Shown one piece after another: positions 421-20,495 of a DNA stretch of 64,000 nt (position 1 is its first letter; each line of letters begins with the position of its first letter). The position numbers and the translations under genes were made by a program. A model generated the notes under the pieces. The model saw only the letters and a list, made by a program, of their open reading frames with translations. It searched no databases and was not told the DNA's origin. The stretch is from Gammaproteobacteria bacterium (lineage in GTDB: Bacteria > Pseudomonadota > Gammaproteobacteria > Steroidobacterales > Steroidobacteraceae), in assembly GCA_028293805.1 (NCBI GenBank), contig JAQGOC010000363.1, forward strand, positions 61,308-125,307, written 5' to 3'.

Positions 421-2591
421 CCGAAAGCGTAGAGCGCTACTACATCCCGGCTCCGGAAGTCCCGGTTCCGGAGCGGCTGCGCGTCCTGAAGCACGATGAG
501 ACCTTCGGCCTGTTCAATGACTTTGGCGACATCGACGCCCATGCCCGGCACGAGGAAGGACTTTATCACCGTGGCACGCGCTTCCTGTCGCAGCTGACGC
601 TGAAGCTCCTGGGCGCCCGCCCGCTCCTGCTGAGCTCGGCCGTACACCGGGACAATCTGCTGATGTCTGCCGACCTCACCAACCCGGACGTGTATTTCGA
701 TGGCCGGGTGATCCTGCCACGCGGCAGCCTGCACGTGTATCGCTCCAAGCTGATCTGGCGCGATACCTGTCACGAGCGCATCCACGTTCGCAACTTCATC
801 AACGAGCCGCTCGAGATTACGCTTGCGATCGGATTTTCCGCGGACTACGCCGACATCTTCGAAATTCGCGGGCAGCAGCGACCGCGGCGGGGCCGTCTGC
901 TCGAGCCGCGCACCGGCGCCAACTTCGTCACGCTTGGATACGAAGGACTGGACCGCGTGAACCGCCGCACGCACCTGGAATGCAAACCGGAGCCGTATGC
1001 GGTCAGCGAATCAGGGATCCAACTGCAGCTGCGGATGGACGCCCACAGCGAGCAGGTGTTCTCGCTGGATATCTATTGTGAAGCCGCCTCTGCAGGCGCG
1101 CAGAAGGCGGCCCGGAGGCCGCGCCTTTCCCAACCCGCCGCTCTTCAGGAAGCGGAGAAAGCTCATGCGGAACAAGACCCACTGCGATGCGTGATCGACA
1201 CATCGAACGAACAGTTGAATGCGTGGCTTACTCGTTCGACGGCGGATCTGGGCATGCTGCTCACCTCCACACCCGCCGGCTTGTATCCTTACGCGGGCGT
1301 GCCGTGGTTCGACACGACATTCGGCCGTGACGGCATCATTACCGCCCTGGAGTGCCTTTGGCTCTCCCCGAATATCGCTCGCGGCGTGCTGACGTTCCTG
1401 GCGCAAACCCAGGCCAAGATACGCGACCCCAATCGTGACGCCGAGCCGGGCAAAATCCTGCATGAGGCGCGCAGCGGCGAAATGGCCGCCCTGGGCGAGG
1501 TTCCCTTCGGCTGCTACTACGGGAGCGTCGACTCGACGCCGTTGTTCGTGATGCTGGCGGGGGCCTATTACCGTCGGACCGGCGATAAGGCTTTCGTGGA
1601 GTCGCTGTGGCCGAACGTACTGGCTGCGATCGAGTGGCTCGAACGCTATGGCGATGCGGATCGGGATGGATTCATCGAATATCAGCGGTACTCCGCCGGC
1701 GGACTCATTCAGCAGGGCTGGAAAGACTCGCATGACTCCGTGTTCCACGCCGACGGCCGACTCGCGGAGGGGCCCATAGCCCTCTGCGAAGTTCAGGGCT
1801 ATGCCTTTGCGGCGTTCGTGACTGCGGCCGAGCTGGCGGATGTCATGGGGCAGGCGGACCGCAGACGCACGTTGCTCGAGGCGGCACGCACGTTGCAAGA
1901 GCGCTTCCACGAGCGCTTCTGGTGCGCGGATATCGCGATGTATGCGCTTGCGCTCGACGGCAACAAGGAACCCTGCCGCGTACGCAGCTCGAACGCAGGC
2001 CATTGCCTGTTCGCGGACATCGCTCGGGCCGATCACGCCGACGCCATCGTCAAGGCTTTGCATGACGATGTCTTTTTCTCGGGCTGGGGGGTTCGCACCC
2101 TGGCCGATATCGAGGTGCGTTATAACCCCATGTCCTATCACAACGGCTCCATCTGGCCGCATGACAATGCGCTCATCGCCGCGGGCCTGAACTCCCGCCA
2201 GGACAAGACTCTGGCGACGCGCATCATGAGATCGCAGCTAGAGGCTTCGACGTATTTCGACTCGAGCCGCCTGCCGGAGCTGTTCTGCGGATTCCGCCGG
2301 CGTGGCGCCAAGCCCCCGACGAGCTATCCCGTTGCGTGCTCACCCCAAGCCTGGGCCGCCGGATCGGTGTTCATGCTCCTGCAGTCCTGTCTCGGGGTGA
2401 GCATCGATGCCGACCGGAATCGCATCGTAGTCAAGCATCCTCGCCTGCCCGACGGGCTGGACCGCTTGTCGATTCGCAACCTGCAGATCGGCCGCGCCAC
2501 CGCCGACCTCGTGCTACAGCGGTACGCGGGTACGGTGGGCATGAACGTCGAAAGGCCCAAGGGGAACGTGGAGGTGTTGCTCGTGAATTGA
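417..2591 (+). CDS. Amylo-alpha-1,6-glucosidase family protein (glycogen debranching-type)
   Basis: The 724-residue product has an N-terminal GDE_N_bis-like beta domain (about residues 15-210) and a C-terminal (alpha/alpha)6-barrel glucosidase domain (about 260-720). Typical barrel segments are FDTTFGRDGIITALECLWL and SIWPHDNALIAAGL. The family hydrolyses alpha-1,6 branches or related glucans; the exact substrate is not established for this bacterial subgroup. I chose the GTG at 417 because it forms a GTGA overlap with the upstream glycosyltransferase stop; the ORF track uses an in-frame TTG at 402. Its own stop codon lies within a TTGAC-N4-GTCAA box that belongs to the next gene, hdeD. Confidence 0.85.
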   Translation: MTESVERYYIPAPEVPVPERLRVLKHDETFGLFNDFGDIDAHARHEEGLYHRGTRFLSQLTLKLLGARPLLLSSAVHRDNLLMSADLTNPDVYFDGRVILPRGSLHVYRSKLIWRDTCHERIHVRNFINEPLEITLAIGFSADYADIFEIRGQQRPRRGRLLEPRTGANFVTLGYEGLDRVNRRTHLECKPEPYAVSESGIQLQLRMDAHSEQVFSLDIYCEAASAGAQKAARRPRLSQPAALQEAEKAHAEQDPLRCVIDTSNEQLNAWLTRSTADLGMLLTSTPAGLYPYAGVPWFDTTFGRDGIITALECLWLSPNIARGVLTFLAQTQAKIRDPNRDAEPGKILHEARSGEMAALGEVPFGCYYGSVDSTPLFVMLAGAYYRRTGDKAFVESLWPNVLAAIEWLERYGDADRDGFIEYQRYSAGGLIQQGWKDSHDSVFHADGRLAEGPIALCEVQGYAFAAFVTAAELADVMGQADRRRTLLEAARTLQERFHERFWCADIAMYALALDGNKEPCRVRSSNAGHCLFADIARADHADAIVKALHDDVFFSGWGVRTLADIEVRYNPMSYHNGSIWPHDNALIAAGLNSRQDKTLATRIMRSQLEASTYFDSSRLPELFCGFRRRGAKPPTSYPVACSPQAWAAGSVFMLLQSCLGVSIDADRNRIVVKHPRLPDGLDRLSIRNLQIGRATADLVLQRYAGTVGMNVERPKGNVEVLLVN

Positions 2592-2601
2592 CGGGCGTCA
2601 A
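2588..2601. promoter_or_regulatory. FNR/FixK-type box upstream of hdeD-like gene
   Basis: TTGACGGGCGTCAA is a perfect TTGAC-N4-GTCAA palindrome. It matches the TTGA-N6-TCAA consensus of FNR/FixK regulators. A TACGAT hexamer at 2624-2629 would put the transcription start near 2636. That places the box centre at about -41.5, the classical position for class II activation. The box overlaps the stop codon of the upstream glucosidase gene. Confidence 0.75.
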
Positions 2602-2643
2602 GGACTGGGCGGGAGGGGCTATTTACGATCTGTCGTCACCAAT

Positions 2644-2670
2644 AGGAGCGCGGCAACACAGGAGCGCGGC
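2644..2670 (+). repeat. Duplicated Shine-Dalgarno segment before hdeD-like gene
   Basis: The 11-mer AGGAGCGCGGC occurs at 2644-2654 and again at 2660-2670, separated by five bases, with the second copy directly abutting the ATG at 2671. Each copy contains an AGGAG ribosome-binding core. Only the second is close to the start codon, and even it sits at the short end of normal spacing. Confidence 0.6.
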
Positions 2671-3255
2671 ATGGCGACTATCACTGATACCGGAAATTTG
2701 GGTACGACGACACTCGGACATCGCCGGGGGTGGTTGCTGGCGCTGGGCATCGTGCAGATCATTGCCGGAGGCATTGCCATTGCGGTCCCCGCCATCGCCT
2801 CCATTGCAGCCGTAGGCATCTTTGGCGCGCTGCTGCTCATGACGGGAATCCTGCAGCTCGTTCACGCATTCAAGGTACGGACTTGGCCGCGCTCGGCCTG
2901 GTACGGGCTCGGCGGGGTGCTCTATACGCTCGCGGGACTTTTCGTGGTGCTCTATCCCATTAGCGGCGCCTTGACGCTGGCGGTGCTGATCGCAGTCCTG
3001 TTCATCGCCGACGGTACCCTGCGCATCGTGTTCGGGATGACGGTCCGGCCCGTTGACGGCTCGGGATGGCTCATCGCCGCCGGTATCGCCAGCATCGTTG
3101 TGGGAGTCGTTCTATTGCTGGGGTGGCCCGCCACCGCGCTTTGGGCTACGGGTCTGTTACTCGGCATCAATCTGATCTTTACCGGTGTGACGAACACAAC
3201 TCTCGCGATCGCCTCCAGAACGAACGCACCCGCGGCCGCCTCTCGGGGCGTCTGA
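2671..3255 (+). CDS. HdeD family membrane protein (DUF308)
   Basis: The 194-residue protein is almost entirely hydrophobic, with about six predicted membrane segments in three hairpins. That is the usual layout and length of the HdeD/DUF308 family, named for an Escherichia coli acid-resistance membrane protein. Segments such as GIVQIIAGGIAIAVPAIASI and GGVLYTLAGLFVVLYP are characteristic. The biochemical role of the family is not settled; it is linked to acid and general stress survival. The gene stands alone, directly downstream of an FNR/FixK box, so induction by low oxygen or a related signal is likely. An AGGAGCG precedes the ATG. Confidence 0.8.
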   Translation: MATITDTGNLGTTTLGHRRGWLLALGIVQIIAGGIAIAVPAIASIAAVGIFGALLLMTGILQLVHAFKVRTWPRSAWYGLGGVLYTLAGLFVVLYPISGALTLAVLIAVLFIADGTLRIVFGMTVRPVDGSGWLIAAGIASIVVGVVLLLGWPATALWATGLLLGINLIFTGVTNTTLAIASRTNAPAAASRGV

Positions 3256-3266
3256 GCCGTCTGGGC

Positions 3267-3301
3267 GCCCACCCGGGTGGGCCATCCGTAGGGGTGGCCC
3301 A
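3267..3301. terminator. Hairpins between convergent hdeD and histidine kinase genes
   Basis: GCCCACCCGGGTGGGC (3267-3282) is a perfect 16-bp palindrome directly after the hdeD stop. A second inverted repeat, TGGGCCA...TGGCCCA, spans 3278-3301. There is no T-run, so this is a terminator-like or attenuating structure rather than a classical intrinsic terminator. Between here and the kinase stop at 3437 nothing else was recognised except a short direct repeat. Confidence 0.4.
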
Positions 3302-3402
3302 TTCGAAAGGCTGCCATCGGCGGAGTTCGGCACAGTCATCTAGCGGGGCTCGGCGCCGATATTCGCCCGCGATCTCCCGCGCGGCGACTGTCCGCCGAGC
3401 CT

Positions 3403-3455
3403 GCACGTCAGGGCCGCAAAGCCTTCACAATAGCCTTCACATCAGGGCAGCAAAG
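3403..3455. repeat. Imperfect direct repeat at the 3' end of the histidine kinase gene
   Basis: CACGTCAGGGCCGCAAAG (3403-3420) and CACATCAGGGCAGCAAAG (3438-3455) are 18-mers with two mismatches. Between them AGCCTTCACA is repeated in tandem (3420-3429 and 3432-3441). One copy encodes the last residues of the kinase (FAAL); the other lies just past its stop. This looks like a small local duplication of the gene's 3' end. Confidence 0.55.
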
Positions 3456-4576
3456 GAATTGCGCGTCTTCGCAACACACCCCTCGATGCGCTCCGGCCCG
3501 CACGCGGCCGGCAGACGCACCACGAACTCGCTGCCGCGTCCCGGCCCTTCACTGAAGGCGTTGAGCGTCCCGCCGTGCAACTCGATCAAATGCCGGGCAA
3601 GCGTGAGTCCGAGCCCCAGACCGCCTTTTGCTGCGCCGGCACCGCGCTCGGCCTGCACGTATGCATCGAACACACGCGGCAACATCTCACGCGCGATGCC
3701 GATGCCCGTGTCGCGCACTTTGACCAGGACCCAAGCGGATTCCCGCTCGACCAGAACGCAGATCCGGCCGCTGTCGTCGGTGAATTTCGCGGCGTTGATC
3801 AACAGATTCGCAAATACCTGCGTCAATCTCCCCGCGTCGCCGTCTACGACCGTCGTGTCGGGAGGTGTTACGACCGTCAGCTGATGCCCACGCGATGCGA
3901 TCATCGGCTGGGCAGCCTCGATGGCGGCCGCAAGCGTCGCTTCGAGATCGATCGCCGCGCGACTGAGCGGGATCTGGGCGTTCTGCGCGCGGGCGAGATC
4001 GAACAGATCGTCGACGAGGCGCACGAGCTGCGCAACCTGGCGCGCCATCGTCGCGCACGATTTGTTGACGATCGCCGGCTCGTCCATATGGTGCCGCAGT
4101 AGTTTCAACGCACTTGAAATCGGTGCCAGCGGGCCGCGCATCTCGTGCGCGGCCAGCGCCAGAAACTTGTCCTTGCGCTCGATGCAGCGGCGCAACTGTA
4201 CGATGACGCGCTCGTTCTCGTCCGCGTCGGTTGCGATGATGAGCCATTCGCCGGTTCTGCCACTGCCGTTGAGAATGGGGTTGCCCCATTCGAGCTGCCG
4301 CACGTAGTTGGATTCGGGCGTGAAGCGCACGCGACGCTCCAATGCATACGGCTCACCGGCCGCGACAGCATGCTCCCACGTGTGCCTCCAGAGGGACCGG
4401 TCTGCGGGGTGCAGCGCCGGCAGATAGCTCTCCAGGAAGCGGGCCCCCTCACCGATCGCAGTAAACGCATACCAGGCCGAATTGCCGTAGGTGAGCCGTC
4501 CGGCCGCATCCACGCCCCAGATGAGCTGCGAAAGGGAATTGGCCAGCCAATGAAATTGTGTCTCGGTAGCGCGCAC
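3437..4576 (-). CDS. PAS domain sensor histidine kinase
   Basis: This is a cytoplasmic sensor kinase of 379 residues with no membrane segment. A PAS domain covers about residues 10-125. It is followed by a HisKA domain with H-box AHEMRGPLAPI, then a HATPase domain with N-box LLINAAKF, G1 DTGIGI and G2 GLGLGLTLARH. No receiver domain or dedicated response regulator adjoins it, so its partner may be the orphan receiver at 6264-6659. I chose the GTG at 4576 because GGAGGA stands nine bases before it; a longer TTG start at 4624 would overlap the stop of the BON gene. It is the second gene of an operon with that gene. Confidence 0.85.
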   Translation of the reverse strand: MRATETQFHWLANSLSQLIWGVDAAGRLTYGNSAWYAFTAIGEGARFLESYLPALHPADRSLWRHTWEHAVAAGEPYALERRVRFTPESNYVRQLEWGNPILNGSGRTGEWLIIATDADENERVIVQLRRCIERKDKFLALAAHEMRGPLAPISSALKLLRHHMDEPAIVNKSCATMARQVAQLVRLVDDLFDLARAQNAQIPLSRAAIDLEATLAAAIEAAQPMIASRGHQLTVVTPPDTTVVDGDAGRLTQVFANLLINAAKFTDDSGRICVLVERESAWVLVKVRDTGIGIAREMLPRVFDAYVQAERGAGAAKGGLGLGLTLARHLIELHGGTLNAFSEGPGRGSEFVVRLPAACGPERIEGCVAKTRNSFAALM

Positions 4577-4620
4577 AGCAATCGTTCCTCCCGTCTGTAA
4601 AGCCTCAGATGCGTGAATTC

Positions 4621-5274
4621 TCAATAACTGACGGTGATACGGTTGTCGACTTTGGTGACGCCGGGAGCCAGCCAGGCAACCCGCTGCGCCTCCTCGCGCT
4701 CCGCCCAGGAACGGACGGTCCCTCGCAGCACCACTTCACTGCCGTTGGCATCGACGTCGATGCGATTCGCGTCGAGTTGAGCGCTGCGCCGCAACGCATT
4801 CTGGATCTTTGCCTTGACCTCGGTCGGACTCACCCGCGGCGCGATTCCGATGAGATTGCTCACGCCCAGCACGCCCTTGACGTGCCGAGCCGTACTCTCA
4901 GCCTTCACACGCTGATAATTCCATTCCACCTCGCCCTCGAGGGTCACCCAGCCATTCTTGACGACGCTCTTGATCTCCTCATATGAATATGGCAATTCCA
5001 ACATGAGCTGCGCGACCAGGTCGCGCGCGATCTCCGGATCCGGTCTCGCATCGGTGGAAGGCAGGCGCACTTCGATGTCATTCGCCACCGCCATCACGCC
5101 GGCAACACGTTTCGCGTCCGCCTCGGCCTGCAGCTTCTGTCCGTAACTGTGCACGAATCCGCTCAGTGTCACGACGCCATTCTTCACGGAAACGCCGATA
5201 TCGGTCGCATCCACGTCGGCGTCGTACTTGAGTTCATCTTCCACGTCGCGCTTTACGTCGCCGTCATTCCGCAT
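4621..5274 (-). CDS. Triple BON domain protein (OsmY-like)
   Basis: The 217-residue protein consists of three consecutive BON domains (about 5-72, 80-145 and 150-216). Each contains the typical G-x-V-x-L-x-G-x-V strand pair, as in NGVVTLSGFV, NGWVTLEGEV and SEVVLRGTV. BON domains are thought to bind phospholipid or cell-envelope surfaces and are common in osmotic-stress proteins, but no signal peptide is visible here, unlike periplasmic OsmY. It is the first gene of a two-gene operon with the PAS kinase. A GGGGAG precedes the ATG, and a perfect FNR/FixK box lies 60 bases upstream. Confidence 0.85.
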   Translation of the reverse strand: MRNDGDVKRDVEDELKYDADVDATDIGVSVKNGVVTLSGFVHSYGQKLQAEADAKRVAGVMAVANDIEVRLPSTDARPDPEIARDLVAQLMLELPYSYEEIKSVVKNGWVTLEGEVEWNYQRVKAESTARHVKGVLGVSNLIGIAPRVSPTEVKAKIQNALRRSAQLDANRIDVDANGSEVVLRGTVRSWAEREEAQRVAWLAPGVTKVDNRITVSY

Positions 5275-5302
5275 GTTCAGTCGCTCCCCGTTCTAACGAA
5301 AC

Positions 5303-6169
5303 TCAACAGTCGTGCGAGCGGCAGCCGTCAGCATTGACCGGAGTCAATTCTCCGGCCGTTTTAGCGCATACCGGCCCCGATCGCGTGAGCCTCGCGGAGC
5401 GGTCGGCCGGAAGCTGGCCCGCGTGGCGGACGCATCCGCCCGGTGTCCTGGTTGGATGTGCTGCCGGCTCAGGCAGCCTGTCGGCGACTTCTTCCAAGGC
5501 GCTGCGATCGCAGATGCGCACCTGCCGGACGGCAGCGAATGCGATCATATGACGAGCGCGCAGTTCCGTGAGAGTCCGGCTCACGGTCTCCACCGCCATG
5601 GCGAGGTAGTCTGCGATGTCATATCGCGACATGGGCAGGAACACCGTCTGAGTCGGTTCAATGTGGCTGCGGTCTGCCATCTCCAACAGGAACGTACTGA
5701 CTTTCTCGAGCGCGCTAGTGCGTCCGAGAGTGACCATGCGCCGCTGCAGACGGGAAATCGACTCGAACGCCACCTCCCGGATATTTCGTGCGATCTGCGG
5801 ATCGGCATCGGCCAGCTGTTCGGCGCCGCGACGCGGATAGCGGGCTATGAGAGTCGCCGGCACGATCGCCTCGACGCAAAAACGGCGGCCGCCGGAGAGC
5901 CCGAATCCGAACAGGTCACCGGGCATGGCGAAGTCCACGATGTGCCGGCGCCCGTCTCCGGTCAGCGCACTCATGCGCGCGGCCCCCTGCATGATCCTGA
6001 ACCAGTGTTCGTTCGGATCGTTGAAGCGGTAGATCGACTCGCCGACGCCGTGGCGGGCGACGGTCGCCAGGCCCTCCAGGGCTCCGAGTGAGTTGTGTCG
6101 TTGAAGCTCGCGAATCGACGCTGACGGGGGAATGTCCACACGATCCTCGGTGTTCTTGCGTGAGCGCAT
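5303..6169 (-). CDS. Crp/Fnr family regulator, FixK-like (no FNR cysteine cluster)
   Basis: The product has 288 residues: a cyclic-nucleotide-binding-type sensor domain (about 25-140), a dimer helix and a winged HTH (about 170-225). The recognition helix reads VETVSRTLTELR; the E-xx-SR residues are those with which FNR and FixK read TTGA half-sites. The N-terminal cysteine cluster that holds the FNR iron-sulfur cluster is absent, so direct oxygen sensing is unlikely and the protein resembles FixK. About 60 residues beyond the HTH are low-complexity, end in several cysteines and have no family counterpart I recognise. The DNA encoding that tail contains an FNR box for the next operon, so part of the C terminus may be under promoter rather than protein selection. 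Confidence 0.85.
   Translation of the reverse strand: MRSRKNTEDRVDIPPSASIRELQRHNSLGALEGLATVARHGVGESIYRFNDPNEHWFRIMQGAARMSALTGDGRRHIVDFAMPGDLFGFGLSGGRRFCVEAIVPATLIARYPRRGAEQLADADPQIARNIREVAFESISRLQRRMVTLGRTSALEKVSTFLLEMADRSHIEPTQTVFLPMSRYDIADYLAMAVETVSRTLTELRARHMIAFAAVRQVRICDRSALEEVADRLPEPAAHPTRTPGGCVRHAGQLPADRSARLTRSGPVCAKTAGELTPVNADGCRSHDC
5334..5347. promoter_or_regulatory. FNR/FixK-type box upstream of the BON-kinase operon
   Basis: TTGACCGGAGTCAA is a perfect TTGAC-N4-GTCAA palindrome lying 60 bases upstream of the BON gene ATG. It is also within the last codons of the FixK-like gene, where it encodes LTPVN. The -10 element at the class II position is weak on the minus strand. Confidence 0.7.
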
Positions 6170-6263
6170 CGCGATGGGCGCACACTATGGGGAGACCCAT
6201 ACGCGAGCCAGTACACCTTGGTTTAACGGGGGCACCCTTTCCGGTGTTCCTCGCCGACTCGCC

Positions 6264-6659
6264 TCAGGCCTGTCGCCAGGCAGAAAACACCGTCCCCACC
6301 AGCCGCGAGAGCTCCTCGGCATCGTATGGCTTGCGCAGCACCGCCACCGCACCGGCCTGCAACAGCTGTGTTTGTAGTTGTCCGGCGGTGTCTTGTTCGG
6401 CGGTGGCAAAGATAGCCGGAATGGCCAGGCCCCGCACACGCAGACCGCGCTGCAGCTCCAGGCCGCTCATGCCCGGAAGCCGCATATCGAGAACCAGACA
6501 GCCTGCCTTGCAGCCGTCCCTCGAGCTCAGGAACTGCTCCGCGCTCGCGAAGCCGCGCGTCCGCAAGCCGTGCGAGTTGAGCAGGTCCTGGGTCGCCGCG
6601 CGCATCGCGGTGTCGTCGTCTACGACCGCAACGAAAAACTGTCGCTTCCGCCTGGCCAT
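6264..6659 (-). CDS. Single-domain response regulator (receiver only)
   Basis: The 131-residue protein is a complete CheY-like receiver with acidic pocket VVDDD near residue 13, phospho-acceptor Asp in LVLDMRLPGMSG and conserved Lys in VLRKPYDAEEL. No output domain follows. The sequence most resembles FixJ-type receivers. It lies between the FixK-like gene and the FixJ/kinase pair, all on the minus strand but with gaps of about 95 bases on each side. It may act as a phosphate sink or as the partner of the PAS kinase encoded at 3437-4576; this is inference. Confidence 0.85.
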   Translation of the reverse strand: MARRKRQFFVAVVDDDTAMRAATQDLLNSHGLRTRGFASAEQFLSSRDGCKAGCLVLDMRLPGMSGLELQRGLRVRGLAIPAIFATAEQDTAGQLQTQLLQAGAVAVLRKPYDAEELSRLVGTVFSAWRQA

Positions 6660-6757
6660 CGCTCGAGAGGGTCCGCTCCCGCATCACGCGGACACCGTTA
6701 TCCGCAAGCGTAGGATCGGCCGAAACGGCCCGTGGTTGCTTTGATCGACGCCACGGT

Positions 6758-7366
6758 TTAGCCGAGTCGCTCGATCATCTGCACGAGTTCGGCGACGCTG
6801 GAGGCCCCCATCCGGTCCATGATGCGGCGGCGATGGACCTTGATCGTGTTCTCGCTAAGCTCGAGCTCGGCGGCAATCTGCTTGTTGAGCTTGCCTTCCA
6901 CGATCCGCGTCATGATCTGATGCTGCCGTGCAGTAAGCCGCGCATGCCGGGTGCGTATTCCGGTGACCTCGGAACGCCGCGCCTTTGCCGCCTCATCCCG
7001 GTAAAGCGCCTGCCGGATGGCATCCAGCAGATCTTCGTCGCGAAAGGGTTTGGGGAGAAACTCGATCGCCCCTGCTTTCATGGCCTCCACGGCCATCGGG
7101 ATGTCGCCATGCGCGGAGATGAAGATAATAGGGATCTGCTGCTCCGCACGAGCCAGCTTGCGCTGCAGGTCGAGACCACTCAGGCCGGGCATGCGCACGT
7201 CGAGGACCAGACATGAGGGGTTTTCACTCCTGCGGCGCCGCAAAAACTCCCCCGACGAGGCGAAACACTCCACACGCAGGGCCACGGAGCCGATCAGGCT
7301 CGCCAGGGCCTCCCGGACTGAAGCGTCGTCATCGACGACGAACACGATGGGTTCCCCCGGCTTCAC
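6758..7366 (-). CDS. FixJ-family response regulator with LuxR-type HTH
   Basis: The 202-residue protein has a receiver (about 5-120) with VVDDD, phospho-Asp in LVLDVRMPGLSG and Lys in FLPKPFRDEDL. A LuxR/FixJ HTH follows (about 140-200; LTARQHQIMTRIVEGKLNKQIAAELELSENTIK region). Length and layout match FixJ/TodT-type regulators. Its GTG start overlaps the TGA of the MEDS kinase gene (GTGA), so the pair is translationally coupled and should form one two-component system. In classical FixLJ systems FixJ activates fixK, and a FixK-type gene lies about 0.6 kb downstream here. Confidence 0.9.
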   Translation of the reverse strand: MKPGEPIVFVVDDDASVREALASLIGSVALRVECFASSGEFLRRRRSENPSCLVLDVRMPGLSGLDLQRKLARAEQQIPIIFISAHGDIPMAVEAMKAGAIEFLPKPFRDEDLLDAIRQALYRDEAAKARRSEVTGIRTRHARLTARQHQIMTRIVEGKLNKQIAAELELSENTIKVHRRRIMDRMGASSVAELVQMIERLG

Positions 7367-9390
7367 TTGGTAGCGGCTCCGGCAAGTGGCAATCTGAACT
7401 GAAATGTGGCCCCTGGTGCGGTGTTACGCATGGCCCACAGCCGCCCGCCATGGGCCTCCACGATGGAGCGGCTGAGCGCGAGGCCGATTCCCATCCCCTG
7501 CGGCTTGCTGGAATAGAAGGGCTCAAAGACACGCTCCAGCACACGGTCATCGAGGCCGATGCCGCGATCTTCCACACAGACCGCGACGCCCGTTCTGTCC
7601 GATGCCGTGGTGATGGCAAGCGCCCGAGGGCGCGTGTTGACGGAGCTCATCGCTTCGACCGCGTTCATGACGAGGTTGAGCAGCACCTGCTGTAGCTGCA
7701 CTTGGTCGCCCAGGATCGGTGGCAGAGGCTCGGCGAGGTCCGTCCGCACCACGACGTCGTTTCGGCGCAGCTCCGTTTTCAGGAGCACGATCACCTCGCG
7801 GACCACTGAGTTCAAGCTCAAGGGATTGCGCCGCGCATCTGACTTCCTGACGAGGGCTCGAATGCGCTCGATTATCTCGCTCGCCCGGTTGCCGTCCTTG
7901 ACGATGCGCGTAAGCGCCTGTTGAGCCCGGCCGATTTGCGGCTCCTCCCACGCTAGCCAGCGCAGGGCCGCATTGGCATTGGCAACGAGAGCCGCGAGAG
8001 GCTGATTCACCTCGTGCGCGATGGAAGCCATCAGTTGGCCCAGCGTCACAGCGCGAGTGGCCCGGGCCAGCTCTGCCTGCATGCTGCCTACAGACTCCTC
8101 GCCGTGCTTGCGTTCCGTGACATCCGCGGCCGTGCCGACGTATTCAGTGAGCTCCCCTGGCCTGCCGAAAACCGGGTAAGCGCAACTGTGAACGTGCTTG
8201 ATCACTCCATCGGGACGGCCGATGCGGTATTCACTGTCGAAGTCGTGCCCGGCATGCACCGCTTGGTGAAACTCCTGCTCGACGCGAGCTCGATCCTGCG
8301 GATGAATCCTCTGAAAAAACAGCTGCGGGGAGACATCGGTACGGGTGGGATCCAGGCCGAAGATTCTGAAATGCTCCCGGGACCAGAACAACTCTCCGGA
8401 TGAGCAGTCCCAGGCCCAGGTGCCCGTCCGGTTGAGCTGCTGACCCAGGGTGAGGTAGTCCACATAGCGCCGCAGTTGTCGCTCTTCCCGCTCGTGCTCC
8501 CGCAGCTCGTCAGCAAGCGCCCGAATCACGTGCTTGCAGGCCTTTACACTGCGCAACAATGGGCTCAGGCGCCGGTTTGGCTTCTGCGCCAGCTCCCCGG
8601 CCGCGGGCCGCGGTACTCCTTCGCGGCGCCAGAGCTCTCCCAGGCTGGCAAGCATTCGATGCACCTCGCGATCAGCCTTGTCGGGCGCGGCGTATTCCTC
8701 GGGTGGGACATGAAAGGTGTTTTTTCCGATCCCGCCCCGGTGAGCGACGATCGCATGAGCCAGGAAGGCGTCCCGAACGAACTCCCCCGACTGCACCGAG
8801 CGATTGTACAAACAGAGGATCGTTACGCCGTTTTTCGCCAGCGCCGGTGTCAAGTGGTTCTCGTAGTCGATCCAATGCGCGAGTACCGCCGCGTCACCGA
8901 GAGCTCGATCGACTTGAATGATGCCGCACAGGCCCGTGAACCCTTCAGCTATTGCCCGTCGGGCGGACTTGCGCCAGAAGTCGAGCGCGCGCTGTGGAAG
9001 AAAACCTTCGCGCGTGAAATACGCGCGCTCGATGGTCGTGAGATCGACAGCTTGGGCTTTCACAGCACGGTCGATCTGCGGGCTTGCGGCACGCAGCGTT
9101 GCGCGAAACGATTTCTCCGCGCCGGCCGAGACCACGCACAGACACTTTTCGCCCCGCGCGATTCCGACTTCCAGGAATGTCTCGAGGATGTCCGGGCATC
9201 CCTGTCGGGCTTCGTAAAGAGAGCACACATGCCCTCCTCCGCCGAGCGCCTCCAGCGCAAAGCGCAACGGCGTCGAGGCCGTCGCAACTGTTTCCGGCGG
9301 TTTTCGAGCAGCCCCCGCAGTCCGCTTTCGTATACGCATGGGCGTACCGCCGCCCGATTTGGCTGGACCATGAAAGGTCTGTTGCGGCAT
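7363..9390 (-). CDS. MEDS-PAS sensor histidine kinase, partner of FixJ-like regulator
   Basis: The predicted 675-residue cytoplasmic kinase has an N-terminal MEDS (DcmR-type sensory) domain at about 30-200, beginning GGHVCSLYEARQG. A linker and a PAS_3-type domain follow (about 305-420), then a HisKA domain with HEVNQPLAALVANANAALRW, typical of the FixL/NtrB class, and a HATPase (LLNLVMNAVEAM, DRGIGL, MGIGLALSRSIVEAHGG). I see no FixL haem-binding PAS signature, so the input is not obviously oxygen via haem. MEDS domains occur in regulators of C1-compound and hydrocarbon responses; the ligand is unknown. I prefer the ATG at 9390, which has AGAGGA about ten bases upstream, over the TTG at 9435. 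An FNR/FixK box lies upstream. Confidence 0.85.
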   Translation of the reverse strand: MPQQTFHGPAKSGGGTPMRIRKRTAGAARKPPETVATASTPLRFALEALGGGGHVCSLYEARQGCPDILETFLEVGIARGEKCLCVVSAGAEKSFRATLRAASPQIDRAVKAQAVDLTTIERAYFTREGFLPQRALDFWRKSARRAIAEGFTGLCGIIQVDRALGDAAVLAHWIDYENHLTPALAKNGVTILCLYNRSVQSGEFVRDAFLAHAIVAHRGGIGKNTFHVPPEEYAAPDKADREVHRMLASLGELWRREGVPRPAAGELAQKPNRRLSPLLRSVKACKHVIRALADELREHEREERQLRRYVDYLTLGQQLNRTGTWAWDCSSGELFWSREHFRIFGLDPTRTDVSPQLFFQRIHPQDRARVEQEFHQAVHAGHDFDSEYRIGRPDGVIKHVHSCAYPVFGRPGELTEYVGTAADVTERKHGEESVGSMQAELARATRAVTLGQLMASIAHEVNQPLAALVANANAALRWLAWEEPQIGRAQQALTRIVKDGNRASEIIERIRALVRKSDARRNPLSLNSVVREVIVLLKTELRRNDVVVRTDLAEPLPPILGDQVQLQQVLLNLVMNAVEAMSSVNTRPRALAITTASDRTGVAVCVEDRGIGLDDRVLERVFEPFYSSKPQGMGIGLALSRSIVEAHGGRLWAMRNTAPGATFQFRLPLAGAATK

Positions 9391-10354
9391 GCAGGAGCTG
9401 TCCTCTGGCAGCGCAGAGGCTGCACACCAAAGCAAACACGTCGCACTGGCTCGCGCCCGTACGACGTGCTGAGCTTATACCGTTATGCTACGAAACGCAG
9501 CGAGCAAGTTGCACTAATTGTACCTGCTCACGCCAACTCATGCCTCTGATCCCTTGTAGCACGCTCGGGAGATTTGACTGAGGTCAAGGCCCATGCTCAC
9601 GCGGTGGAATATTCAGACTCGGTCTTGCGCTCATCGCGCAGATCCGTCATGGACTGCAACACACTGCTGCCTGCGCCGCTGCGTACAACATGACCGCGTC
9701 CGCAACGGAATCAGGATTCGAGCGGCAAGAGGTTTTCGAAAACACCGGCGAGCCCGCCCGGCAGCGTGGCACCCGTTTTCATTGATGCCTGGCGCGGCGA
9801 TGCAGCGCACAAGCTTGCCCCTGCAGGTAACACGCGCGGGACTCCAGGGATCGCCACCATCTGGCCGATTCATCCGCCGGCGATCAAACACATTGCCGAG
9901 CGCCTGCTTGTTACCCGCAGCGACCGGTCCGCTTTCCGGTACTTTGGCCAACCTTGCGCCACGCGCGGGTAGAACACAACGTCAGCGGCACGCCGGCAGC
10001 GCGCAACGCGCCATAGAGATTCGCCCCTGCTTGGGCGAGACCGTAACCTCGCCTGCGCGTGCCGCATGCGTTCGCATACAACACGGCCGGATGGGCGCTG
10101 TCTCAAGGAGTGTCATCTTTGTCCTGAACGTGCGCCGCGAGCGGCAAACCGAACAACGGGAGACGGGACATTGAGAATATTTCGTTTCGCCCTGCGCGCC
10201 GCATCGGACAGCATTGCATTTCGTGATCACATAATGAAATCCGGGCTCCGCCCCTGCGCAACGGAAAACCCGCGCAAAGCCGCCTTGGTCCGCGGGTATA
10301 TTCGTCCGGCCGGGAGCCCCTCCCATGCTGAAAATCCAACACGAGGTACTGCCT
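9391..10354. other. Long intergenic region (about 960 bp) without a recognisable gene
   Basis: Short ORFs here (for example 9593-10174) have arginine- and cysteine-rich translations typical of spurious frames in high-GC DNA, and none resembles a known family. The only structured element I can support is the FNR/FixK box at 9574-9587. The stretch is unusually long for this compact window and may hold an untranslated leader, a small RNA or the remains of a lost gene. Confidence 0.6.
9574..9587. promoter_or_regulatory. FNR/FixK-type box upstream of MEDS kinase-fixJ operon
   Basis: TTGACTGAGGTCAA is a third perfect TTGAC-N4-GTCAA palindrome, 183 bases upstream of the preferred kinase start at 9390. 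A TACAAG hexamer on the minus strand near 9553-9558 could serve as a -10. The box could equally act rightward into the empty region. Confidence 0.65.
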
Positions 10355-13427: not shown

Positions 13428-13994
13428 GTGACAGTGCCTCCCGTAGAGAAGATCTTCATTTCGGCCGACTCGCTGCTGCGCGACTCGATGGAGCTTGCCG
13501 CGCAAATTGTCCGCAGCGGCTTCCGCCCCACCTTCCTCGTGGCCATCTGGCGCGGGGGTGCCCCCATCGGCATCATGGTTCAGGAAGTTCTCGAATACCA
13601 CGCGATACACGTCGACCACATCGCGATCCGGACTTCGTCATATACCGGGATCGACACACAGGCCACGACCGTGCGGGTACACGCCCTCGATTACCTGGTC
13701 TCGCGCCTGTCGTTCGAGGACGAGCTGCTGCTGATCGACGACGTGTTCGACTCGGGCCGCAGCCTCGAAGCGGTCATTTCCGAGCTGAGCCGCCGCTGTC
13801 GGCGCAACCTGCCGGCCAAGATCCGGATCGCGACCGTGTACTACAAGCCGGCGCGCAATCGCAGCAGTCTCAAGCCCGACTACTTCGTGCGGGCCACGAA
13901 CGATTGGCTGGTGTTTCCCCACGAGATCCAGGGACTGACGCGTCAGGAAATCCTCGACCACAAGCCGGTCGATCAGAGCTTCTTCGACACCTAG
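13428..13994 (+). CDS. Purine (hypoxanthine-type) phosphoribosyltransferase
   Basis: The 188-residue protein has the type I PRTase fold. The PRPP-binding signature is LLIDDVFDSGRSLEAV near residue 105, and FLVAIWRGGAPIG is the pyrophosphate-loop segment. It would convert a purine base plus PRPP to the nucleotide. The start is a GTG at 13428. It is convergent with the adenine deaminase gene, with stops eight bases apart, and lies at the left edge of the purine catabolic island, so hypoxanthine or guanine salvage is the natural reading. The exact base preference cannot be read from sequence. Confidence 0.8.
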   Translation: MTVPPVEKIFISADSLLRDSMELAAQIVRSGFRPTFLVAIWRGGAPIGIMVQEVLEYHAIHVDHIAIRTSSYTGIDTQATTVRVHALDYLVSRLSFEDELLLIDDVFDSGRSLEAVISELSRRCRRNLPAKIRIATVYYKPARNRSSLKPDYFVRATNDWLVFPHEIQGLTRQEILDHKPVDQSFFDT

Positions 13995-18147: not shown

Positions 18148-20495
18148 CAGCCGATCCCCTGAACGCGCGGCCTGCTAGTGCCGACCATTGGCCGCCCGGC
18201 GGCATTGTGGGTGAACCGCACCCGCACGACAGCGCGCACCTGCACGTCACTGGCCGGGCACTCTACTGCGACGACATTCCGCTACCCGCAAACGCCTTGG
18301 ATGCGGCATTCGGCATGAGCGCGGTGGCTCATGGACGCATCCGATCAATGGACCTATCGCGAGTGCTGGGTGCGCCTGGCGTCGTGGCCACTGCCGTTCC
18401 CGCCGATATTCCGGGCGAAAACAACTACGGCGGAGCCGTGCACGACGACCCGATCTTCGCGCATGACCTGGTGCAATACGCGGGACAGCCGGTGTTCGCG
18501 GTGGCCGCAAGCTCCGAGCTGGCGGCCCGCAAGGCGGCACGTCGCGCGCGCATTACTTACGATACGCTACCCGCGATCCTGGATATCCGTTCGGCGCTGG
18601 CCGCGGAAAGTTATGTCCTGCCAAGCCGGCATCTCGTCCGCGGCACACCTCACCAGATGCTGGCAAGCGCGCCTCATCGCCTCCAGGGCACAGCCACGAT
18701 CGGCGGCCAGGACCATTTCTACCTCGAAGGCCAGATCGCGGTCGCGCTTCCACAGGAAGACGACGCGATGCTGATTCACAGCTCGACACAGCATCCGACC
18801 GAAGTACAACACGTAGTCGCGCACGCACTTGGCGTGCCGCTACACAAGGTCACCGTGCAGTGTCGCCGCATGGGCGGCGGCTTCGGGGGCAAGGAGAGCC
18901 AACCCGCGCTCGTGGCGGCGGCCGCCGCGGTTCTCGCGCGCAAAACGGGCCGGCCCGTCAAACTGCGCCTGGATCGCGATGTCGACATGATCATGACGGG
19001 TAAACGCCACGACTTCCTCGCTGACTACGATGTCGGCTTCGACAGCCAGGGCCGCATCCTCGCTGTGACGATCCTGCTGGCCTCCCGCTGCGGATATTCA
19101 GCGGACCTGTCCGGGCCGGTCAACGATCGCGCAGTTTACCATCTCGACAACGCTTATTTCCTGGAGCACGTCGAGATCGTCTCGCATCGATGCAAGACAC
19201 ATACGGTTTCCAACACCGCATTCCGCGGTTTTGGCGGACCGCAAGGCATGCTGGTGATCGAGCGCGTGATGGACGACATCTCGCGCAGCCTGGGCCGGGA
19301 CCCGCTGGACGTGCGCCGCACGAATTTCTACGGAGTGCGCGACCGTAACGTCACGCATTACGGCCAGACCGTCGAGGACAACATCATCCACGTCCTGGTG
19401 GACGGGCTCGAGTCGGATAGCGCGTATCGCGAGCGACGCCGCGCGGTGGCCGAGTGGAATGCCGCACAGCCCATCGTCAAACGCGGCTTGGCCCTGACTC
19501 CGGTCAAATTCGGCATCTCCTTCACCGCCACTCAATTCAACCAGGCCGGCGCCCTCGTGCACGTCTACACCGACGGCACCGTGCTGCTCAATCATGGCGG
19601 TACGGAAATGGGCCAGGGCCTGCATATCAAGGTGGCCCAGGTCGTCGCCGCGGAGCTCGGCTTGCCGCTGGCGGCGATTCGCATCTCGGCCTCGGACACC
19701 AGCAAAGTGCCGAACACCTCCGCCACGGCCGCCTCCTCGGGTTCCGATCTCAACGGCATGGCGGCCCAGGCCGCCGCACGAATCATCCGGCAGCGTCTGG
19801 TGGAATTCGCGTGCGAGTCGCGCGGCCTGCGTGCCGAAGAGGTTCGCTTTGCGGGCGGCCGGGTTCAACTTGGTACGGAAAGCCGCGCGTTCGTGGATTT
19901 CGTTCGTGACGCCTATACCGCACGTATCTCATTGTCGTCGACCGGTTTCTACCGGACGCCCAAGATCCACTGGGACCGGACGACCTTGCGGGGGCGCCCT
20001 TTCTTCTATTACGCATACGGCGCGGCAGTCGCCGAAGTTGCCGTCGACACGCTGACGGGAGAGACGCAGCTGCTGCGCGTCGACATTTTGCACGATGTCG
20101 GAAACTCCCTGAATCCGGCAATCGACCGAGGCCAGATCGAAGGCGGTTTTCTGCAGGGCGCCGGCTGGCTGACCTCCGAGGAGCTCTGGTGGAATGAGCA
20201 AGCCGAGTTGCAGACTCACGCCCCATCCACCTACAAAATTCCAACCGTGCGTGACTGGCCGGCGCTGGCCAACATCCGGTTTTTCGAGGGTACCGCGAAT
20301 CGCGAGGAGACGATCTATCGCTCCAAAGCCGTCGGCGAGCCACCGCTGATGCTGGCCATCGCGGTCTTCTGTGCGATTCGGGACGCCTGCGCGGCGTGCG
20401 GCCCCCCGCACGCGCTTCCGGAACTCGTCGCACCGGCAACTCCGGAGGCGGTTCTGCGCGCGATCAATGGCATGCGCCACGGACGCGTTTCATGA
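18144..20495 (+). CDS. xdhB: Xanthine dehydrogenase molybdopterin-binding large subunit
   Basis: The 783-residue molybdenum subunit starts at the ATG overlapping xdhA; the 1,080-residue ORF in the track is a fortuitous upstream extension. It carries the molybdopterin segments GGGFGGKESQPALVAA, FRGFGGPQGMLVIE and NHGGTEMGQGLHIKVAQV. The catalytic Glu lies in KAVGEPPLMLAIAVF near the C terminus. With XdhA it oxidises hypoxanthine to xanthine and xanthine to urate. The 4-base overlaps with xdhA and xdhC imply tight stoichiometric translation. Confidence 0.95.
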   Translation: MTADPLNARPASADHWPPGGIVGEPHPHDSAHLHVTGRALYCDDIPLPANALDAAFGMSAVAHGRIRSMDLSRVLGAPGVVATAVPADIPGENNYGGAVHDDPIFAHDLVQYAGQPVFAVAASSELAARKAARRARITYDTLPAILDIRSALAAESYVLPSRHLVRGTPHQMLASAPHRLQGTATIGGQDHFYLEGQIAVALPQEDDAMLIHSSTQHPTEVQHVVAHALGVPLHKVTVQCRRMGGGFGGKESQPALVAAAAAVLARKTGRPVKLRLDRDVDMIMTGKRHDFLADYDVGFDSQGRILAVTILLASRCGYSADLSGPVNDRAVYHLDNAYFLEHVEIVSHRCKTHTVSNTAFRGFGGPQGMLVIERVMDDISRSLGRDPLDVRRTNFYGVRDRNVTHYGQTVEDNIIHVLVDGLESDSAYRERRRAVAEWNAAQPIVKRGLALTPVKFGISFTATQFNQAGALVHVYTDGTVLLNHGGTEMGQGLHIKVAQVVAAELGLPLAAIRISASDTSKVPNTSATAASSGSDLNGMAAQAAARIIRQRLVEFACESRGLRAEEVRFAGGRVQLGTESRAFVDFVRDAYTARISLSSTGFYRTPKIHWDRTTLRGRPFFYYAYGAAVAEVAVDTLTGETQLLRVDILHDVGNSLNPAIDRGQIEGGFLQGAGWLTSEELWWNEQAELQTHAPSTYKIPTVRDWPALANIRFFEGTANREETIYRSKAVGEPPLMLAIAVFCAIRDACAACGPPHALPELVAPATPEAVLRAINGMRHGRVS

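Follow-up and report, generated by a model that had tools for sequence, protein, structure and literature searches.

The genes and palindromic sites compiled in Table 1 probably constitute a FixLJ-FixK-type cascade, the regulon of which is partly gathered around the locus of its own regulator. The core of this arrangement resides in a 64-kb stretch of DNA (the window) on contig C322 of a MAG of 5.77 Mb and 89% completeness. A FixK-type regulon is mostly known in kind, such switches of a two-component system and the activator FixK having been described in nitrogen-fixing alphaproteobacteria; unusual are the host lineage, a soil gammaproteobacterium, and the swapped sensor. Our observations extend this type of regulon to a genus of Gammaproteobacteria, and each of the main boxes is backed by comparison between species.

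Table 1. Genes and FixK boxes of the window, and box-linked genes in the remainder of the MAG
Feature	Position	Strand	Remarks
FixK box TTGACGGGCGTCAA	2588..2601		Upstream of hdeD, box centre to ATG 76 bp; exact match
hdeD-like membrane protein	2671..3255	+	Pfam DUF308 1.5e-23
PAS-HisKA-HATPase sensor kinase	3437..4624	-	Overlaps BON gene
Triple-BON-domain protein (OsmY-like)	4621..5274	-	Pfam BON 2.4e-46, three stretches
FixK-type CRP/FNR regulator	5303..6169	-	cNMP_binding and Crp HTH; recognition helix AVETVSRTLTEL
FixK box TTGACTCCGGTCAA	5334..5347	read on -	66 bp upstream of BON ATG; exact match
Single-domain response regulator	6264..6659	-	Response_reg 1.4e-20; FixT-like by position and type only
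FixJ-type response regulator (receiver and LuxR HTH)	6758..7366	-	Pfam
MEDS-PAS-HisKA-HATPase sensor kinase	7363..9435	-	MEDS 3.1e-32; 4-bp overlap with fixJ
FixK box TTGACCTCAGTCAA	9574..9587	read on -	Upstream of kinase-fixJ-receiver-fixK row; exact match
PRC-barrel, BON, DUF5335, divergent DsbA-like gene	just upstream of window (L020)		Box-linked
Second, partly assembled MEDS-kinase locus	elsewhere in MAG (C26)		Box-linked
DsbA paralogue	elsewhere in MAG (C357)		Box-linked
FMN reductase	elsewhere in MAG (C135)		Box-linked
cNMP-domain/pyridine nucleotide-disulphide oxidoreductase fusion	elsewhere in MAG (C132)		Box-linked

An exact pattern scan of the entire window recovered the perfect TTGAC-N4-GTCAA box three times, at 2588, 5334 and 9574, and at no position in the rest of the 64 kb. 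This agrees with the earlier note, in which three perfect boxes were read from a 7-kb stretch, none was seen outside it and a ten-position match was held to occur far less than once by chance in 64 kb: the expectation for the window is 0.03 and none of 100 shuffles reached three sites. The genes behind the boxes, namely hdeD, the BON-kinase pair and the MEDS kinase-fixJ genes, are also those described there, as judged from Pfam matches; the hdeD product matches the HdeD model at 2e-19, below that model's cut-off. The box at 5334 is situated within the 3' tail of the fixK reading frame, the C-terminal tail of the protein not being conserved in orthologues, and the box at 9574 comes to lie about 190 bp upstream of the MEDS kinase when ATG 9390 is taken as its probable start, a position conserved in relatives. 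The sole further window site departing from the relaxed pattern TTGAY-N4-RTCAA by no more than one mismatch, at 19494 (CTGACTCCGGTCAA), lies deep inside a coding ORF and was rejected as a regulatory site.

Among 148 genomes searched for fixK (the window's own MAG and relatives), close orthologues were found only in G005 and G050, which belong to the same genus and harbor two copies each; apart from the window's MAG, this fixK is confined to two of the 57 congeners screened. In these two relatives, boxes recur at the promoters of hdeD, BON/kinase, the MEDS kinase, the PRC-barrel gene and DUF5335; at the latter four promoters, the 4-bp spacer has diverged between preserved half-sites. The BON box has its counterparts in TTGACCTCTGTCAATGCTGACGGC (G050) and TTGATGTCTGTCAAGGC (G005), and in both relatives its TGA is the stop codon of fixK. 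Counterparts of the MEDS-kinase box occur in the paralogue on the MAG's own contig C26 (TTGACTTGTATCAA) and in G050 and G005 (TTGACTTGCATCAA), and these four MEDS-kinase promoters keep the box while their flanks diverge. At the hdeD promoter, GAATTGACGGGCGTCAAGGACT in the window is replaced by GAATTGATAGCCATCAAGGACT in G005, a symmetric C..G to T..A change on both arms. As half-sites are kept, spacers vary and the two arms at hdeD change in a matching manner, the boxes have the appearance of dimer-binding sites and not of chance palindromes, which would not behave in this way. The C/G form of the box is not special, as orthologous promoters may have TTGAT half-sites in the place of TTGAC. The conservation at orthologous promoters also speaks for membership in a FixK regulon. 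A conserved upstream box was furthermore noted for a phosphoribosyltransferase-erythromycin esterase fusion in G050 (L220, C139) and G005 (L181, C64).

The surroundings of the 80 best homologues contain 113 relaxed boxes and not a single match to the reversed control. For box-promoters from outside the genus (71, all intergenic), the score for a sigma70 -10-like element peaks sharply 22 nt after the box, a height reached by none of 20000 random-offset draws, and this offset is the spacing predicted for a class II activator site centred near -41.5. Boxes from the window's own genus give a weaker -10-like peak at 21-23, with 151 of 20000 random draws reaching the value at offset 22. The hdeD promoter fits the class II arrangement, its -10-like TACGAT starting exactly 22 nt after the box, and GACTGT of the BON promoter is conserved in G050. 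At the MEDS promoter, the distance between box and -10-like elements varies from 24 to 50 nt. With the weak peak and a MEDS promoter lacking class II spacing, this geometry was not established for all boxes of the genus. It is conceivable, albeit rather unlikely, that only some boxes, e.g. those of hdeD and BON, are activator sites, whereas that of the MEDS kinase is either a remnant or used for repression and does not confer positive feedback. The variable distances at the MEDS promoter and the negative autoregulation of fixK2 in B. diazoefficiens (PMC9104804) are in line with this; however, the box persists in all four MEDS-kinase promoters despite their diverged flanks. We prefer the reading that the conserved box in front of the kinase operon returns output to the sensor, as proposed before, whereby this feedback may be positive or negative alike.

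The regulator itself, for which GTG 6127 is the probable start codon, combines a cNMP-binding fold with a Crp-type HTH and an E-xx-SR recognition helix (Pfam), as is typical of the CRP/FNR family. Its orthologues are 55-75% identical and VETVSR is invariant among them, its own helix reading AVETVSR. The FixK2 structure 4I2O is its best PDB match by sequence (7.8e-42), and in a quick tree, which rests on a short search and includes an alphaproteobacterial FixK-type set of 11 rows, the protein is nested in that set and apart from FNR-like rows of the genus. Tree and structural match thus argue for a grouping with FixK and not with FNR or DNR, and the nesting within alphaproteobacterial FixK suggests that the gene was probably acquired horizontally from Alphaproteobacteria. 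The best model is the NCBIfam FixK (Caulobacter) equivalog, with 148 bits against a cut-off of 300; this cut-off suits close Caulobacter-type orthologues and we therefore term the protein FixK-like, or a member of the FixK clade, but not an orthologue in the sense of that equivalog. No N-terminal cysteine cluster for a [4Fe-4S] center, as required for FNR/ANR, is present in its sequence. The earlier description as a FixK-like protein with VETVSR and without FNR cysteines is thereby upheld by sequence, orthologues and the 4I2O match. A difference from FixK2 concerns the redox residue Cys183, which seems to be represented by the Ser in LPMSRYDI (alignment with 4I2O, where the solved chain also has Ser). 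As the C183S variant of FixK2 is active and insensitive to oxidation (PMC9104804), one would not expect redox control of the FixK2 kind here.

An HTH_Crp_2 search of the MAG, which is 89% complete, detected no other CRP/FNR protein of the ETVSR type (E-xx-SR); the other CRP-type proteins found read VRRxGVT, SREMAGR or TAVHVNR at that motif. Given this degree of completeness, a true FNR could be missing, and the boxes might then serve a canonical, oxygen-sensing Fe-S FNR/ANR whose gene is absent from the assembly, with the FixK-like protein sharing or ignoring them. The recognition sites of FNR and FixK are almost identical (PMC4999443), and other members of the genus with ETVSR-type FNR/DNR-like genes also have such boxes. 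Yet this possibility is quite improbable in view of the outcome of the search and of the boxes that occur again at the fixK locus itself in both fixK-carrying relatives. Binding of a dimer of the FixK-like protein to TTGAY-N4-RTCAA is, in turn, predicted from its recognition helix, its clade and its association with the boxes.

A genome-wide scan for TTGAC-N4-GTCAA, which the earlier note had proposed as a check, gave 6 perfect boxes in the whole MAG versus 3 for the reversed pattern, and their density is not much above that in genus members without this fixK, in which other FNR-like proteins occur. Such counts are weak as proof and the argument consequently rests on clustering and conservation. 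Relaxed boxes, about one quarter of which are attributable to chance, number 24 versus 6 for the reversed control, and five of them fall within 13 kb, two of which (C322:58070 and C322:59358) precede the window start by about 3.2 and 2.0 kb. A stretch of 13 kb should hold about 0.05 of the 24 sites in 5.77 Mb (Poisson P(>=5) about 4e-9, or about 2e-6 once about 440 windows are allowed for). The boxes located 2-3 kb ahead of the window start and in other parts of the genome extend the regulon beyond the 7 kb assumed earlier. Chance clustering of palindromes, for which several matches within coding genes (C170, C219, C25) could be put forward, is extremely improbable in the light of the window expectation and the shuffles and is already contradicted by the conservation of the boxes across species. 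The identical TTGACCGGAGTCAA at C219 is located in a coding gene without homology to the window site and was taken as a chance match. Three additional observations were made. A box, TTGATGCGCGTCAA, is kept before the cNMP-binding/thioredoxin-reductase-like fusion (L031 5247, G000:C132:34246; L212, G050:C86). The partial second MEDS-kinase gene (L026, G000:C26:1-3016), about 68% identical and equipped with its own box, would belong to a paralogous locus or else stem from another strain binned together with this one. A 16-bp palindrome, GTTGACAACTGTCAAC, precedes a sugar transferase gene (L021 2943-2958, G000:C9; also L192, G005:C124) and perhaps belongs to another regulator, because its spacer is conserved too.

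The two-component system of the earlier note exists as a kinase and a FixJ-type regulator, but the sensor is FixL-like in its transmitter only: the FixL model fits best over residues 432-686 (222 bits versus a cut-off of 850), and a profile search shows MEDS and PAS_3 as input, with no match to a haem-PAS as in FixL. The response regulator, consisting of receiver and LuxR HTH, has FixJ as its best model with 209 bits, below the cut-off of 255, and is therefore designated FixJ-type. A check of the kinases for defence systems yielded solely a weak generic kinase-domain match. Upstream of fixK (6128-6263), a block ACCGGAAAGGGT...AAGGTGTACTGG is conserved in four loci and is a candidate FixJ-dependent promoter; a FixJ consensus site was not recognised there beyond the block itself. 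In the alphaproteobacterial loci L106 and L117, a kinase-FixJ-receiver row adjoins a divergent fixK, with the single receiver beside fixLJ, and in L124, likewise from Alphaproteobacteria, BON and DsbA genes adjoin fixK. Kinases of the alphaproteobacterial loci have PAS (PF00989) or other inputs, and among the loci examined MEDS input occurs only in the window's genus. Among the papers listed in a literature search on MEDS together with FixJ/FixK, none names a MEDS domain, and we know of no well-established ligand for MEDS domains. The single receiver contains two cysteines (CKAGC), one of them conserved. FixT is a single-domain receiver inhibiting FixL in Caulobacter (PMC7078487), and the window's receiver resembles it in being a single domain encoded within a FixLJ-type system; in contrast to FixT, a four-cysteine motif is not evident, and a FixT-like role is putative.

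By analogy with the FixLJ paradigm, the MEDS-PAS-HisKA kinase would phosphorylate the FixJ-type regulator encoded next door, and FixJ~P would raise fixK transcription, probably from the conserved block between receiver and fixK. Judging from box conservation, the FixK-like protein may then activate hdeD, BON and the second kinase, with the best support at hdeD, as well as the upstream PRC-barrel, BON, DUF5335 and DsbA genes and redox genes elsewhere. The FixK-type regulon suggested previously is thus backed by conserved boxes, the recognition helix and the sole ETVSR-type protein found, but its wiring is not local. The box-linked outputs belong to general stress and redox functions, and their role in envelope stress, as read in the earlier note, is conjectural. 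Low oxygen or respiratory stress probably provides the signal, as suggested by the FixK analogy, by the lxa locus and by genes for Usp, COX1, Zn-ADH and Lactamase_B (metallo-hydrolase), which, like FMN_red, adjoin boxes in related MAGs.

Several traits are shared with FixLJ-FixK2 of Bradyrhizobium, Caulobacter and Rhodopseudomonas: the sensor kinase gene overlaps that for the FixJ regulator, a single-domain receiver is encoded nearby, FixK is devoid of Fe-S cysteines and the boxes read TTGAY-N4-RTCAA, with TTGACCTGCGTCAA among the FixK2 targets in B. diazoefficiens (PMC9104804). Differences lie in the MEDS and PAS_3 sensor without haem-PAS match and in the local outputs, which comprise hdeD, BON, PRC, DUF5335 and DsbA, whereas a cbb3 oxidase was not seen there. 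In the low-oxygen-activated (lxa) locus of Burkholderia cenocepacia (PMC6127331, PMC9104464), which encodes the Anr/FixK homologue BCAM0049, low-oxygen stress genes including one for a BON protein are similarly gathered (PMC6127331), and its FixK homologue in B. dolosa is controlled by FixLJ. The window locus deviates from lxa in regulator lineage and gene order, and no Usp genes were seen there. Tentatively, we consider it possible that a horizontally acquired FixLJ-FixK module has been re-wired in Gammaproteobacteria, with a MEDS-PAS kinase in place of the FixL haem sensor, a FixK stress regulon answering a signal other than haem-sensed oxygen and the sensor operon under FixK control. The locus suggests that FixJ-FixK output modules may be joinable to other sensors. 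As the predicted output of this MEDS kinase, the hdeD and BON promoters, lends itself to reporter use, it could provide a route to the MEDS ligand.

Two further observations concern genes in and beyond the window. A phosphoribosyltransferase encoded at 13428-13994 weakly matches StiP, a tellurite-like stress protease. In Bradyrhizobium sp. BTAi1 (L112), seven relaxed boxes lie within 20 kb around a fixK homologue and a BON gene, the latter 64% identical to that of the window.
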